A model generated the notes under the pieces. The model searched no databases. It was given only the letters and a program-made list of their open reading frames with translations, and was not told the origin of the DNA. A stretch of DNA of 33,443 nucleotides from Oscillospiraceae bacterium. GTDB taxonomy: Bacteria > Bacillota > Clostridia > Oscillospirales > Oscillospiraceae. Within the stretch, counting starts at the first letter, position 1. Each line of letters opens with the position of its first letter. The position numbers were made by a program, and so were the translations under genes. The DNA lies in the NCBI GenBank assembly GCA_021202795.1, contig JAJQCH010000184.1, positions 1 through 33,443 on the forward strand, given 5' to 3'. This document shows positions 18,154 to 24,721 of the stretch, in pieces.

Positions 18154-19011
18154 TTATTTTACGACCTTCAGATGGCGGGTGCTGACGGGATGCTCCATGA
18201 TTTCCGGGTTTGCCAGCAGTTCCTTCAGCCGGGCGAAGGCCAGGGCAAAGTAGTGACCGGAGCAGATGCGCTCGTCCATGACGACGCCGATGGGCAGGCA
18301 GCGGACAAGCTCGATCTCTCCGCCCTTGCCCCGCTTTGGCACGTCCCGCATATTGCCCATGGCCAGGGCGATGGAGGTGGTGCCGAAGTCGTATACGTGG
18401 TGATAGATGTGGTTTGTGCGGATGCTGGTCAGGTTCGTCATCAAAAGGCTTGCGTGGAAGGGGCTGACGTCCACCAGGGCCTTTGGCAACATTCCATGCT
18501 TATCCATGAATCGAAGCAGCCATCCGGCTACGTCCACCAGGCCGCCCAGCTTGCACAGCATATTCATGATATTATCCAGGCCGTTTGCATCCTCCTCTGC
18601 GGCGGAGGAGTTTTTCTCCACATATTCGTCCACCTTCCGCTGAACGTCGAAGACCGTGTCCTCCGGGTCGAAGTAAAGCTTGCCCATGGTGCCGTTGTTG
18701 GCCCGATCGCCGGGGCGCAGCACCACCAGGGAAACGGCTATGTCGTTGTGCTGAAACACCCGCCGCCGGGCCACGAAGCGGTTCAGGGAGGGGAACTCCG
18801 ATACCATCTGGACATACGCTGCCAGAATCAGCGTCATATTGTTGATGCGTATGCCCTCCCGCCGCTTGGCGTTCAGGTATTTCCGCATGGGTTCTACAGG
18901 AATATCAATCGTGGTCATGTTCATGGAATCATGGCGCTCGGTCAGAAGCTGGGGGATTAGGGTATACATCGGCCCCTCATCTGTTACACGTGTACCGTCA
19001 ACTCTACCCAT
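18154..19011 (-). CDS. 2-oxoacid dehydrogenase acyltransferase catalytic-domain protein (no lipoyl domain)
   Basis: MTTIDIPVEPMRKYLNAKRREGIRINNMTLILAAYVQMVSEFPSLNRF...TSIALAMGNMRDVP; start at MGRVDG preceded by TAAAGGAGG. Confidence 0.75.
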   Translation of the reverse strand: MGRVDGTRVTDEGPMYTLIPQLLTERHDSMNMTTIDIPVEPMRKYLNAKRREGIRINNMTLILAAYVQMVSEFPSLNRFVARRRVFQHNDIAVSLVVLRPGDRANNGTMGKLYFDPEDTVFDVQRKVDEYVEKNSSAAEEDANGLDNIMNMLCKLGGLVDVAGWLLRFMDKHGMLPKALVDVSPFHASLLMTNLTSIRTNHIYHHVYDFGTTSIALAMGNMRDVPKRGKGGEIELVRCLPIGVVMDERICSGHYFALAFARLKELLANPEIMEHPVSTRHLKVVK

Positions 19012-19147
19012 TGTATTTTCCTCCTTTAAGGACACCGGCTGCCGCCGAAAAAACTTAAATATATCTAAGCATATTTTAGCCTTAAATGCAATACCCCAGT
19101 ACATGAAAATGAAAATTTTAGCTATCATGCTATACTGTCCAGAACGA

Positions 19148-19180
19148 AAAAGGGGCCGGTTCCGAAAAACCGCCCCTTTT
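19148..19180 (-). terminator. terminator of secreted esterase gene
   Basis: AAAAGGGGCCGGTT / AACCGCCCCTTTT hairpin. Confidence 0.75.
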
Positions 19181-19204
19181 CTCAACTATATTGTTTTTTC
19201 GTCT

Positions 19205-20203
19205 TTACTCCTTCACCTGCTGGAACAGCCAGTCCCGGACGGCGCTGATCTTGTAAGCGTGGTCGAAGGAATACATATGCTCGCTGCCGGTGGAGGCGGC
19301 GTCCACGCCGTCGGGCAGGACGCTGCCCTCCTCCCAGGCGATGAAGTTTGCCAGATACCCCTCATCGATCAGGGCCTGGACGGACTCCTCGATGACTTCA
19401 GTCTCGTCCTTGGCGTTCAGCCGGGCCTGACCATAGGCCACGCCGTCCTCGTCGAACATGGCGATAACGTTGGCCATGCCCTGGGAGGCCTTTTCGTCGC
19501 CCTCCGCAGCGAAGTAGAAGAAGGGCTGCTCCTCCAGGGCGGCGAGAATCTCCACCGGCCACTGGCCGTCCACATAGAGGCTGGCGGCGAAAAGGTCGGG
19601 ATAGGTGCCGTTGAGATACAGGGCCGTCATGCAGCCCATGGACTGCCCTGTGATGTAAAGACGGTTTTCGTCGATGCTGTAGGTCTCCTGCAGGGCAGTG
19701 AGCAGGTTCAAGGTGGCCGCCACATAGTCCGTCACGTCCTCCTCCCCGTCCAGGATGTTCTCCGGGTACTCCGGGGCCAGAACGAAGCAGGGATGCTTCT
19801 CCTGATCCTCCTCCGTGGCCCATACCAGTGCGCCATAGCCCTGCTCCAGCGCGTCCGTGGTCTCGCCGCCTACCACGCTGGAATCGGGGATGAACAGCAC
19901 CAGGGGATAGGCCTGGGTCTCGTCATAGTCCTCCGGCACGAACAGGTTATAGGAAAAGCTCCTGCCGGTCTCCTCGTCCTGATAGTCGAGCTGCTGGAAT
20001 TTTTCCTCTACCTCCGCCAGCAGGGCGGACAGTTCCTCGTCGCCGCTCTTGTCCACAGAGCCGCCGCCTGTCCGACCGGTATCCCGCCCGGTCAGGGTCA
20101 TCTCCCCGGAAGCGGACGGCCCCTCCGATGCGGCCCAGGCCCCCAGCGCCAGGCCGGAAAGGCACAGGGTCAGCGCCAACGCGGTCGCAATGATTCGTTT
20201 CAT
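19205..20203 (-). CDS. secreted alpha/beta-hydrolase (PHB depolymerase/esterase-like)
   Basis: signal peptide MKRIIATALALTLCLSGLALGAWA; YPLVLFIPDSS, nucleophile elbow ITGQSMGCMTALYL, C-terminal H in GSEHMYSFDHAY. Confidence 0.82.
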   Translation of the reverse strand: MKRIIATALALTLCLSGLALGAWAASEGPSASGEMTLTGRDTGRTGGGSVDKSGDEELSALLAEVEEKFQQLDYQDEETGRSFSYNLFVPEDYDETQAYPLVLFIPDSSVVGGETTDALEQGYGALVWATEEDQEKHPCFVLAPEYPENILDGEEDVTDYVAATLNLLTALQETYSIDENRLYITGQSMGCMTALYLNGTYPDLFAASLYVDGQWPVEILAALEEQPFFYFAAEGDEKASQGMANVIAMFDEDGVAYGQARLNAKDETEVIEESVQALIDEGYLANFIAWEEGSVLPDGVDAASTGSEHMYSFDHAYKISAVRDWLFQQVKE

Positions 20204-20324
20204 ATGATAGCCTCCTAAGTTCATTACTTTTTTAACAGGATAGGGTCAGTATACCACAAACCGAAAAAAGATGCTAAGGGAAAAATGAGAATCATAGAAA
20301 AAAGTATTATGCCCAGTATTAAAA

Positions 20325-20441
20325 TGTCCGATTATGCCAAGCGAGAAATACCACCCGTCAACCCCAAATTAAGGTTGTCCGATGATGCAGGGTCAATAAT
20401 ATTGCCCGCCAATCTACAATTTAAGGTTGTCCGACAATGCA
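20325..20441 (+). repeat. three degenerate tandem units (~51-52 bp) leading into repeat copy B
   Basis: TGTCCGA at 20325, 20376, 20428; shared TTAAGGTTGTCCGAnnATGCAGGG. Confidence 0.65.
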
Positions 20442-20539
20442 GGGCGAGGGATTTTTTCGTCAGGTCGTGATGTGACGACGCGGGCGTACATAGGTACGTC
20501 AAGGAGGCACAGCGCGACCTGGCGGAAAAAGACCCGCCC
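20427..20539 (+). repeat. imperfect-palindrome intergenic repeat, copy B (core 20442-20539)
   Basis: GGGCGAGGGATTTTTTCGTCAGGTCG ... CGACCTGGCGGAAAAAGACCCGCCC; matches copy A on the other strand. Confidence 0.8.
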
Positions 20540-20549
20540 CGTCCGAAAG

Positions 20550-20587
20550 AAGGCCCCTGCCAAAACGGGCGTTTTGGCAGGGGCCTT
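20550..20587 (-). terminator. terminator of sulfotransferase-cysD-cysNC operon
   Basis: 17-bp perfect stem AAGGCCCCTGCCAAAAC / GTTTTGGCAGGGGCCTT, 4-nt loop. Confidence 0.85.
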
Positions 20588-20599
20588 CGGTATGCGCCA

Positions 20600-22471
20600 T
20601 TATATCGTCTTATCTTCTAGGCGGGCTAGTATGGCGGCGGTCAGGGCCTCCACACATTCTTCCTCGTTCCACTTCTCCGTGTCCAGCACCAGGTCGGGGT
20701 TTGTGGGCGGCTCATAGGGAGAGGACAGCCCGGTGAAGTTGGGAATGTGGCCCTCCAGGGCCTTTTTATAAAGCTTCTTGGGGTCGCGGGATTTGCACGT
20801 CTCCACGCTGGCCTTCACATAGACCTCCAAAAAGTCCTTGCCCACGATTTTGCGGGCCTGCTCCCGGCTGGCGGCGAAGGGGCTTATGAGCGTCACCAGC
20901 GTCACCATGCCCGCGTCACGGAACAGGTTTGCGATCTCGCCCACCCGGCGGATATTCTCCGTCCTGTCTGCGTCGGAAAAGCCCAGGTCGGCGCACAGGC
21001 CCCGGCGTACCTTGTCCCCGTCCAGGATATAAGCCAGCACGTCCGCGTCCAGCAGGCGGCGTTCCACCTCCTGGGCGATGGTGGTCTTGCCCGCGCCGGA
21101 AAGGCCGGTCATCCACACCACCAGGCCCTTCATGCCGGACATACGGCGGCGCTCCTCCCCGGTGACGCCGCCGGAGGACCAGCGGATGTTCCGGGTGTTG
21201 TAGTCGTATTCCTCCAGGGCCTGGGTGATGATGCCACCGCCGGCGATCTCATACCCGTCCACGATGACGAAGCGGCTGGTGGCCTCCACCGTCCCGGCCA
21301 GGTCGAAGGCCACAGGCCGTTCCAGGGTGATGACGCACTCGCACACCTCGTTTTTCTCGCAGTATTGCCGCTGTCCGGCGGACAGGGTGGAGGCGTTCAC
21401 AATGCGCTCGATGCTCTCCAGGGCCATCTCCACCTTGGCGGTGCCGCATTTGAAGTAGTACCGCCGGTTGCGGTCGAAGGGCTGCTTGCCCAGCCAGAAG
21501 ACGTTTGCCTTCAGCCGCACCCCCACCTGGGGGGCGGGTTCGTCCCGGCGGCAGGCGATCTCGCCCCGGTGGACGAATATCTGCTCGTTCATGGTGAAGC
21601 CCGCGGCCATGCCCGCCTCGAAGGCCGTCGGCGTGGCGGCGTTGAATACCTCCAGGCTCTTGACGCTGGTCTTTTTGCCGGAGGGATAGAACACGATCTC
21701 GTCCCCGGCCCGGACGGAGCCGGATTCCACGGTTCCCACCACGATGCGGCGGCTGTCGTTGTTGGCGGTGAATTTATATACCCCCTGCACCGGCATACGG
21801 AAGCTGGCCCACTCCGGCGCGGGGACGGAGGCGAAATCGTCCATCTGCTGGAGCATGGTGGGGCCTGTATACCAGCTCATCCGCTGGGAACGGTTCGCGA
21901 TGTTGTCCCCCTCCATGCCGGAGACGGGGATGAAGGACAGGGGGTGTATGTCTACTTTTTCCAGGAAGGTGGACATCTCGGCCTTGATGTCCTCAAAAAT
22001 CCGCTGGTCGTAGCCCACCAGATCCATCTTATTCACCAGCACGGCGATCTGGCGGATGCCCAGCATGGAGAGAAAGTAGCCGTGGCGGCGGGTGTTCTCT
22101 TCCACGCCGCGGGCCGCGTCTATGACCATCAGAGCGGCCTCTGCGCGGGAGGCGCCTGTCACCATGTTCTTTAAAAATTCGATGTGGCCCGGCGCGTCGA
22201 TGATGATGTACTGGCGTTTGTCCGTGTGGAAGAAGCAGCGGGCGGTGTCGATGGTGATGCCCTGGGCCTGCTCGTTTTTCAGCGCATCCAGCAAAAAGGC
22301 GTATTCAAAGGGCTTGGAGTTGCGGCGGCAGTTTTCCCGCACCGCCTCCAGCTTTCCGTCCGGCAGGCCGTGGGCGTCTGCCAGCAGACGGCCCACCACC
22401 GTGGATTTTCCGTGATCCACATGGCCCACGGTAACAATATTCAGGATTTCCTCGTTGTCCAAAGCAGTCAC
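20600..22471 (-). CDS. cysNC: bifunctional sulfate adenylyltransferase subunit 1 / adenylylsulfate kinase
   Basis: [33 protein letters not shown]-terminal [21 protein letters not shown]...[21 protein letters not shown]. Confidence 0.97.
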
Positions 22472-22478
22472 CTCCGTC

Positions 22479-23357
22479 TCACATATAGCCGTTGCGGCGA
22501 AGGGTCTCTAAGCCGCCGTCCTCGGCGTCCTGGGCGCGGCCTGACCGCTCCGCGATGGAGGACAGGGCGCCGGTGCGAAGCTCCTCGATGATCTCATGTA
22601 CGTTGTGGGATTCCGATTTGATGGGCTTTGTGCAGGGCGCGCAACCCAGGCTGCGGTAGCGGGTGCCGTCTCCCTGGTTATAGTAAAGGCTCACGGTGGG
22701 GATGTTCTCCCGCTCGATGTACTCCCACACGTTCAGCTCCGTCCAGTCCAGCAGGGGATGGATGCGCACATGGGTGCCGGGGGCAAAGTCGGTTTTGAAC
22801 TGATTCCAGAACTCCGGGGGCTGGTCGTCCAGATCCCAGTCGTTTTTCTGGTCGCGGGGGGAGAAATACCGCTCCTTGGAACGGCTGCCCTCCTCGTCCG
22901 CCCGCGCCCCCACGATGACGCCGGTGTAGCGGTCGGTGTTGGTGTCCCGCTCGTACTCCCCGGTTTGAAGATTCAGCCGGTAGCGGGGCCAGGAGCCGTC
23001 CAGGGTGTGGGCCAGGGCCTCCGTCTTCAAAAGGCGGCAGCACTCCACATGGGATACGTTCCCGTCAGGGAAGGTGGTTTTGCTGTCCAGGGCTTCCTTG
23101 TTTTCGCCGTAGATCATATAAAGGCCCATTTCCTTGGCAAGCCTGTCCCTGTATTCGATCATTTCCGGGATTTTGTAGTGGGTGTCTATATGCACCAGGG
23201 GAAAGGGTACATGGCCATAAAACGCCTTCCGTGCCAGCCACAGCAGCACGGTGGAGTCCTTCCCGATGGACCAGAGCATACACATATTGTCAAAGGCGGC
23301 GTAGGCCTCCCGCAGGATGTGGACGCTTTTTGCCTCCAGCTTGTCCAGATGATCCAT
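22479..23357 (-). CDS. cysD: sulfate adenylyltransferase subunit 2
   Basis: [57 protein letters not shown]. Confidence 0.97.
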
Positions 23358-23359
23358 AA

Positions 23360-24526
23360 TTACAATCCCTCCACGGCCTTCATGGGTTCGCCCTGTACCA
23401 TTTCATAGCCGTAATGCTCAAAGTAAAAGCCCAGGTTCTGGTTGACCTTCTCCCGCAGCCGGGGGCGAATGGCGTGACGGTCGGTCTGATAGGATTTCTG
23501 CCCGGCGATGAAGGAACGCAGACGGGGCAGGGCGTCCTCAAAGCCGCCCAGCTCCAGCTCCTGGTAGATGTACCGCAGATACCGCTCCGGGTCGGTGACG
23601 AAGTCCTCATACTTCACGCTGACGAAGTGGTGGGGCTTGAAGGTGGGTTCCTCGGCAATCAGCTTTTTATACATGGGAACGGCCATGCGGTGGATGACCA
23701 TATCCTCCAGCAGATCGTCCACATCCACGTCCGGGAGCTTTGTCAGCATGACAAGGTTTATCTGGCTTTTTATCATGTTTACCGTGCTGTCCACCACGGC
23801 GTAGGGGTCGCGGTAGATGTTCACAAATTTGGCGTCCGGGTAAAGCTCCCGGAGCATATCCGTCCGGGCGGTGTTGTCCGGGCTTTTCAGCACCAGGCGT
23901 TTGCCGCCGCCGGTCATGGTCTTCTTTTTCAGAATGTGCTGATAGGCCCGGCGATAGCGCCGCTGCTGCCGGGGCGGAAGCTGGTCGACAAATACATAGG
24001 GGACGTATTTTTCCCACACCAGGGGGAAGGCCAGCAGGTGATCCAGAATAAAGGGGGTGAAATTCCCCAGGGCAAAGGTCTCCTCCATGGGCAGATCCAT
24101 GGTGTACTGGACGTTATCCATGGGCCGGGCGTTCTTGATGCCGCTTTTTACGCCGCCCCGCAAAAGCCAGCCCAGCAGCACATAGTTGGAGAACATGGCT
24201 GTGTTCATGGGGCTGAACCAGTCGAACTGGGGATCCCGGCTCATCAGGTTTTGAAGATAAGTGGTGCCGCTGCGCCAGTGGCCCAGGATGAACACTGGAT
24301 CCTTTATGATTTTTGCGCGGTGCAGGGGAATGGCGCACACCAGCCCCTCCAAAATGGCGAAGGGGAACAGGATAATGCTGATGACGGTGATGAACAGCGC
24401 CTGCGGGATCTTGCTGGGCTGGATGCGGAACCGGCACCGCCACAGCAGACGGAGCCAGTTGTCCAGCCGGACGCCCAGCAGATAGTGAGATAGATTGAAA
24501 ATCTTGGTTCGTTTCTTGTTACTCAT
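23360..24526 (-). CDS. PAPS-dependent sulfotransferase family protein, putatively membrane-associated
   Basis: 5'-PSB-like [17 protein letters not shown]; 3'-PB-like [39 protein letters not shown]-terminal hydrophobic segment [24 protein letters not shown]. Confidence 0.9.
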
Positions 24527-24721
24527 GGAAGCTCCGGCGCAGGAACAGCCCGCGCATTTTTTATTTAGCCGTAATAGGCGTATAATATGTTACAAATATG
24601 GTATACTGGAAACCTAAACTCAACCTAAACCCCATCGGATGAAAAACATTCTCATTTGCTCTTTGGATATATACCATGGAATGAAGGGGTTTGTCAATTC
24701 CCGGTATATGGCGGTACGACG

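Follow-up and report, generated by a model that had tools for sequence, protein, structure and literature searches.

A putative sulfotransferase-CysD-CysNC sulfation operon in an Oscillospiraceae bacterium, related to but distinct from the steroid-sulfating cluster of Bacteroides

Organization of the operon

The window analysed here, a 33,443-nucleotide contig from the draft genome (2.25 Mb, 97% complete, 195 contigs) of an uncultured, gut-type Oscillospiraceae bacterium, harbours three consecutive minus-strand genes, which encode a sulfotransferase (designated here as SULT), a CysD protein and a CysN-CysC fusion (CysNC). The following features were assigned to this operon:

23360..24526, minus strand: operon gene 1, SULT, a PAPS-dependent sulfotransferase (PF13469, 388 aa)
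22479..23357, minus strand: CysD, ATP sulfurylase catalytic subunit of the Clostridia type (292 aa)
20600..22471, minus strand: CysNC, a CysN-CysC fusion
approximately 21224-22450, minus strand: GTPase subunit of CysNC
approximately 20681-21130, minus strand: APS kinase part of CysNC
20549..20588, minus strand: intrinsic terminator at the operon end, formed by a 19-bp inverted repeat without mismatches and followed by a T-rich stretch

A preliminary description of this DNA had presented the locus as a tightly spaced three-gene operon closed by a terminator. The ORF coordinates bore out the order, the strand and the intergenic gaps of 2 nt (SULT/CysD) and 7 nt (CysD/CysNC), and a strong terminator was indeed found, its arms lying at 20549-20567 and 20570-20588. 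Profile searches matched SULT to Sulfotransfer_3 (E=3e-30; 106 bits versus a cut-off of 27), CysD to PAPS_reduct (E=2e-40; PP-loop SIGKDS) and CysNC to both GTP_EFTU (E=2e-45) and APS_kinase (E=8e-62). In CysNC, the CysN GTPase motifs, the APS kinase P-loop and DGD/NFTG are intact, and translation may start at an internal TTG after GGAGGTGA instead of at the listed GTG. CysD passed the PRK05253 profile and did not pass TIGR02039. Across the window and two congeners, dN/dS values were 0.08-0.10 for SULT, 0-0.01 for CysD and 0.04-0.12 for CysNC, and all three genes are thus under purifying selection.

Sequence and predicted structure of the sulfotransferase

The deduced SULT protein sequence and its predicted structure revealed the following elements:

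24260..24283, minus strand: 5'-phosphosulfate loop G82-H-W-R-S-G-T-T89, kept in 41 relatives, with most positions invariant
24083..24085, minus strand: E148, an invariant residue of the PxEE motif that may act as catalytic base
23786..23812, minus strand: R239 and S247, 3'-phosphate-binding pair spaced 8 residues apart, invariant
24317..24418, minus strand: N-terminal helix of residues 37-70, long and hydrophobic, which probably attaches the protein to the membrane

The motifs resembling a PAPS-binding site, which had been pointed out in the first gene, were present and conserved across relatives: G82, W84, R85, G87, T88, T89, D137, E148, K214, R239, P241, S247 and Y321 were invariant among 41 bacterial and archaeal relatives. 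In human SULTs, the Arg and Ser that bind the 3'-phosphate are likewise 8 residues apart. E148 is a candidate for the catalytic base.

Structure prediction using AlphaFold yielded a SULT model with a pLDDT of 91.8 and a pTM of 0.91, for which the best solved folds were those of the mycobacterial Sulfotransfer_3 proteins STF9 (2z6v) and STF1 (2zq5), followed by tyrosylprotein sulfotransferases. STF9 and STF1 were also the closest solved proteins in sequence, although identity in the structural alignment was only 17%. The hydrophobic N-terminal segment mentioned in the preliminary description was recovered, as the peak hydropathy of 2.51 (best 19-residue mean) falls within the predicted helix 37-70. 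This helix fits a membrane-bound enzyme with a membrane-partitioned acceptor. A large extra helix was also remarked upon for the model of BT_0416, from Bacteroides thetaiotaomicron, in a paper on Sutterella sulfotransferases (PMC10932419).

Genome content and proposed function

A search of the whole draft genome with PF01507 revealed no cysH, the sole match being the operon CysD, and a search with PF01077 (sulfite/nitrite reductases, DsrAB included) gave no match, while most control genomes did give matches; this search for reduction genes covered PF01507 and PF01077. Gene absence from a draft in 195 contigs carries a small residual doubt. As neither cysH nor a sulfite-reductase domain was found, PAPS would have no visible outlet except sulfation. 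The operon SULT is the single PF13469 protein of the genome.

It had been stated that the window holds neither a PAPS/APS or sulfite reductase gene nor a PAP phosphatase gene. For the reductases, this absence now extends genome-wide (no PF01507 protein beyond CysD and no PF01077 protein), but for PAP removal it does not: two DHH-family proteins are encoded elsewhere in the genome, one adjoining truB, whose best match is NrnA at scores below the NrnA cut-off, and these are possible PAP phosphatases. Four TauE-family transporters were found in the genome, none of them beside the operon, and no gene was assigned as a sulfate importer.

The operon could in principle supply sulfate reduction instead of sulfation, given that other Clostridia carry the same CysD type beside a CysH with APS-reductase motifs. 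However, this genome is devoid of cysH and sulfite reductase, and the operon encodes an APS kinase domain and a sulfotransferase; a role in sulfate reduction was rejected on the basis of the whole-genome searches (PF01507, PF01077) and is regarded here as extremely improbable.

The claim that the operon is dedicated to sulfation is accordingly well supported, as genes for APS and PAPS synthesis lie beside a SULT with an intact PAPS site in a genome without cysH or sulfite reductase. SULT, CysD and CysNC very probably constitute a self-contained, dedicated sulfation unit that moves activated sulfate to a hydroxyl acceptor. From what is known of these families, CysD and the GTPase half of CysNC would convert sulfate and ATP to APS, the kinase half of CysNC would phosphorylate APS to PAPS, and SULT would transfer the sulfuryl group to the acceptor hydroxyl with release of PAP, which a general NrnA-like enzyme would then remove. 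The acceptor is most likely, though on weak grounds, a hydrophobic, membrane-partitioned alcohol, because SULT possesses the N-terminal helix and its closest operon-linked relatives are the steroid-sulfating enzymes of Bacteroidales; this class assignment is based on analogy and hydropathy only.

A conserved cysteine set in CysD

Two cysteine pairs were identified in CysD:

23037..23042, minus strand: C106-C107, aligned to the CC pair that ligates the [4Fe-4S] cluster in APS reductase
22632..22643, minus strand: C239-x-x-C242, aligned to the CxxC motif that ligates the [4Fe-4S] cluster in APS reductase

All four cysteines were found in each of the Clostridia-type CysD proteins (48/48), whether these came from sulfation or from assimilation loci, and the CC pair and the second cysteine of CxxC were absent from all ten Bacteroidota-type CysD proteins compared. 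In HMMER alignments, the cysteines fell in register with the cluster-binding motifs ECC and GCxPCT of the Pseudomonas APS reductase (2goy); at the same positions, canonical CysD (1zun) displays a gap and GCYPLT, respectively. The window CysD therefore matches the CC...CxxC cluster ligands of APS reductase, but lacks its catalytic ECGLH tail and is otherwise a CysD. The neighbouring CysH proteins of other Clostridia carry the same cysteine motifs together with the catalytic ECGLH.

The simplest reading of these alignments is that Clostridia-type CysD binds a [4Fe-4S] cluster, which we infer with caution, because the CC-to-CxxC distance in the window CysD (131 residues) exceeds the APS reductase spacing and the CysD model is only moderate (pLDDT 75). 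To our knowledge, CysD-type ATP sulfurylases are otherwise without an iron-sulfur cluster, and no description of such a CysD was found among the titles and abstracts returned by searches of open-access papers. The four-cysteine CysD is the most unusual element of the operon and, if a cluster is bound, would represent an iron-sulfur form of the enzyme. In a more far-reaching scenario, which we deem unlikely, Clostridia would possess an oxygen-sensitive [4Fe-4S] CysD that links the enzyme to APS reductase in evolution and is coupled here to regulated sulfation of the cell's own membrane lipids, in a hitherto undescribed gut-Clostridia sulfolipid system.

Distribution and phylogeny of the cassette

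SULT homologues were identified in 18 of 301 genomes of the family, and the SULT-CysD-CysNC order was observed in 15 of these 18; together with the purifying selection described above, this shows that the arrangement is not due to chance. Beyond the genus, identity to the window proteins was 34-51% for SULT, 57-76% for CysNC and 77-91% for CysD, and Clostridia SULTs differ from one another by 50-65%. The distance matrices of SULT, CysD and CysNC were correlated (r 0.77-0.83, Mantel p 1e-4), as expected of a jointly inherited cassette, with species phylogeny contributing in part.

A scan of named genomes for SULT returned Oscillospiraceae, Lachnospiraceae and other Clostridia, many of them sampled from the guts of ruminants or other animals (including goat, buffalo, yak and rumen), with Thermoplasmata, Asgard archaea, planctomycetes, cyanobacteria and Bacteroidota as the next matches. 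Eubacterium oxidoreducens DSM 3217, a named strain, encodes a SULT homologue (42% identity) and carries an APS kinase gene at a different genomic site. An APS kinase match was obtained in all 20 other SULT-bearing genomes tested (17 strong and 3 weak), those with an unlinked SULT included. At two loci, L092 and L110, a Clostridia SULT lies with or near a second, non-orthologous CysD and CysNC, this CysD being Bacteroidota-like (64-69% identity to an Alistipes protein and only 36-37% to the window CysD), which indicates that the link of SULT to PAPS supply arose more than once. Separately, the same sulfotransferase family was observed to be greatly expanded in Thermoplasmata, Asgard archaea and planctomycetes (L105-L166), where PAPS genes are mostly not nearby.

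To place the window SULT relative to the Bacteroidales enzymes, whose identification as orthologues of BT_0416 is based solely on gene order, phylogenetic trees were compared. The Clostridia SULTs formed a clade with support of 100/99 and the Bacteroidales proteins one of 100/100, and a topology joining the two was rejected (AU p=0.0063); as the trees are unrooted, this result means that the clades are not exclusive sisters among the sampled sequences. Judged by these trees, the window SULT, with ~31% identity to the Bacteroidales type, is not an orthologue of the BT_0416-type steroid enzymes.

These results bear on the possibility that the acceptor is a sterol, bile acid or plant sterol encountered in the gut, by analogy with the action of BT_0416 on cholesterol. 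The homology to the Bacteroidales type, the presence of PAPS genes in the same operon, the production of cholesterol sulfate by BT_0416 (PMC9417993) and the ruminant origin of some named relatives (goat, buffalo, yak and rumen samples) are all consistent with such an acceptor. Nevertheless, the separate clade (AU p=0.006 against joining), the divergence among the Clostridia enzymes themselves, the occurrence of non-gut archaea and planctomycetes in the wider family, and a two-component system upstream of SULT in related loci, which fits envelope control better, make a gut sterol a somewhat unlikely acceptor.

Neighbouring genes and regulation

Neighbouring genes were counted across 29 non-redundant Clostridia SULT loci. 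In the window, the operon is flanked by the following features:

24609..24631, minus strand: direct repeat GGTTTAGGTTGAGTTTAGGTT upstream of SULT, with a period of 11 bp, candidate OmpR-type operator
18154..19185, minus strand: CAT/E2-fold acyltransferase-like protein, true start near 19011; a recurrent, optional neighbour
19205..20224, minus strand: secreted esterase-like protein, past the terminator; co-located in this genus only

CysD was found near SULT in 16 of the 29 loci, TauE or chromate-transporter-type genes adjoin several SULT cassettes, and an OmpR-type response regulator and a histidine kinase are encoded directly upstream of SULT in six loci (6/29); no two-component system was found beside the window operon. 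OmpR/PhoB-type regulators often bind direct repeats with an 11-bp period. The repeat GGTTTAGGTTGAGTTTAGGTT is identical in a congener, though the surrounding spacer has diverged, and the SULT site was the only copy found in its own genome when up to two mismatches were allowed. A less strict motif, GGTTN7RGTT, precedes SULT in 6/29 loci, compared with a background frequency of 0.9% per stretch, an enrichment that is suggestive only, because the six include two congeners and the motif was defined once some of the loci had been viewed. Together, these findings weakly suggest that the operon is regulated by an OmpR-type two-component system.

A CAT-like gene is located beside SULT in six of the 29 loci. 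Such genes adjoin SULT in the window, L024, L028, L092, L093 and L097, and the L024 protein carries an N-terminal membrane domain. In the CAT-like proteins, the HxxxDG motif, catalytic His included, is replaced by an invariant DERI, so that CAT-like catalysis may be lost or altered. The CAT-like gene was rejected as a fixed part of the operon, as it lies past the terminator and its homologues occur in 221 of 301 family genomes, mostly without SULT; the esterase gene was likewise rejected, being past the terminator and having matches restricted to this genus. In a congener without SULT, DUF554 and CAT-like genes directly adjoin (L240, 6811-8550), and this junction may mark a site of cassette gain or loss. 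The stretch that separates the esterase gene from the cysNC terminator also contains three 28-nt direct repeats (20314-20444) with a spacing of 51-52 and the core TGTCCGAnnATGC.

This neighbourhood is consistent with an acceptor from the cell's own envelope (a lipid, an isoprenoid or a glycolipid) that would be sulfated under the control of an OmpR-type two-component switch, sometimes with the participation of a CAT-like acyltransferase homologue. The hydrophobic SULT helix, the regulator and kinase directly upstream in six loci, the genome-unique 11-bp-period repeat at the SULT promoter that is unchanged in the congener, and the CAT-like gene beside SULT in 6/29 loci (in one case with a membrane domain) argue for such an acceptor. 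Set against these are the wide and mostly SULT-free occurrence of CAT-like genes and the loss of their catalytic His, the window operon being without an adjoining two-component system, and the post hoc definition of the repeat pattern common to relatives. We therefore put forward an envelope acceptor tentatively, as a reading that may well apply but that we stop short of calling probable.

A capsule, an exopolysaccharide or a peptide natural product was also considered as acceptor, as CysD-CysNC pairs of other Clostridia occur in different settings. At L084 (1-9944), a different sulfotransferase-like gene directly precedes CysD-CysNC in a glycosyltransferase/flippase locus that, judged by eye, probably specifies a sulfated surface glycan, and at L085 (2294-9270) CysD-CysNC lies beside HPr-kinase-like, asparagine-synthase-like and different sulfotransferase-like genes in what looks, again by eye, like a sulfated lasso-like peptide cluster. 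However, both sulfotransferases differ from SULT, and the window operon has neither glycosyltransferase nor peptide genes next to it, which renders a glycan or peptide acceptor quite improbable. Of the two hydrophobic candidates, a lipid or lipid-linked molecule of the cell's own envelope is somewhat favoured over a sterol of host or plant origin.

Comparison with known systems

Among systems of sulfate metabolism, the assimilatory cysH-cysD-cysN operons of Clostridia (L075, L076, L078, L079, L080 and L082) share the CysD subtype of the window, with 73-75% identity and all four cysteines. In these operons, the neighbour of CysD is a CysH that carries APS-reductase motifs, and a SULT-family sulfotransferase was not recognised, whereas the reverse applies to the window.

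Knowledge of how microbes sulfate gut metabolites stems chiefly from Bacteroides. With a second sulfation operon, which branches separately and occurs in Oscillospiraceae and Lachnospiraceae, the range of organisms that may make sulfated gut lipids or steroids would be extended. The preliminary description had suggested that a Clostridia version would be of interest; such a version is not unheard of as such, since Firmicutes homologues of the Bacteroides enzyme were earlier noted by Yao et al. 2022, according to a review (PMC12667688).

In the Bacteroides cluster, BT_0416 produces cholesterol sulfate, BT_0412 is a proposed sulfate importer and BT_0413-0415 are proposed to make PAPS (PMC9417993). 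The Bacteroidales SULT homologues identified here display the gene order cysQ-permease-cysC-cysD-cysN-SULT, which matches the published BT_0411-0416. In Bacteroidales, a PCMD-domain protein is encoded after the BT_0416-type sulfotransferase (L220, 5685-6680; L130, 7981-8931) and is a possible partner in steroid sulfation.

The comparison with this cluster drawn in the preliminary description is apt as an analogy, as in both cases a PF13469 sulfotransferase, homologous and of similar length, is clustered with genes for APS and PAPS synthesis; it does not extend to orthology, given the separate clades (AU p=0.0063). Furthermore, cysQ and a gene for an SLC13/CitMHS-type permease are present in the Bacteroidales clusters, in which cysC, cysD and cysN are separate genes, whereas the window operon has neither cysQ nor a permease, encodes a fused CysNC and a CysD of a different subtype, and possesses a SULT that belongs to another clade. 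The window operon thus resembles the Bacteroides steroid cluster in its logic, yet is distinct from it in lineage and parts.
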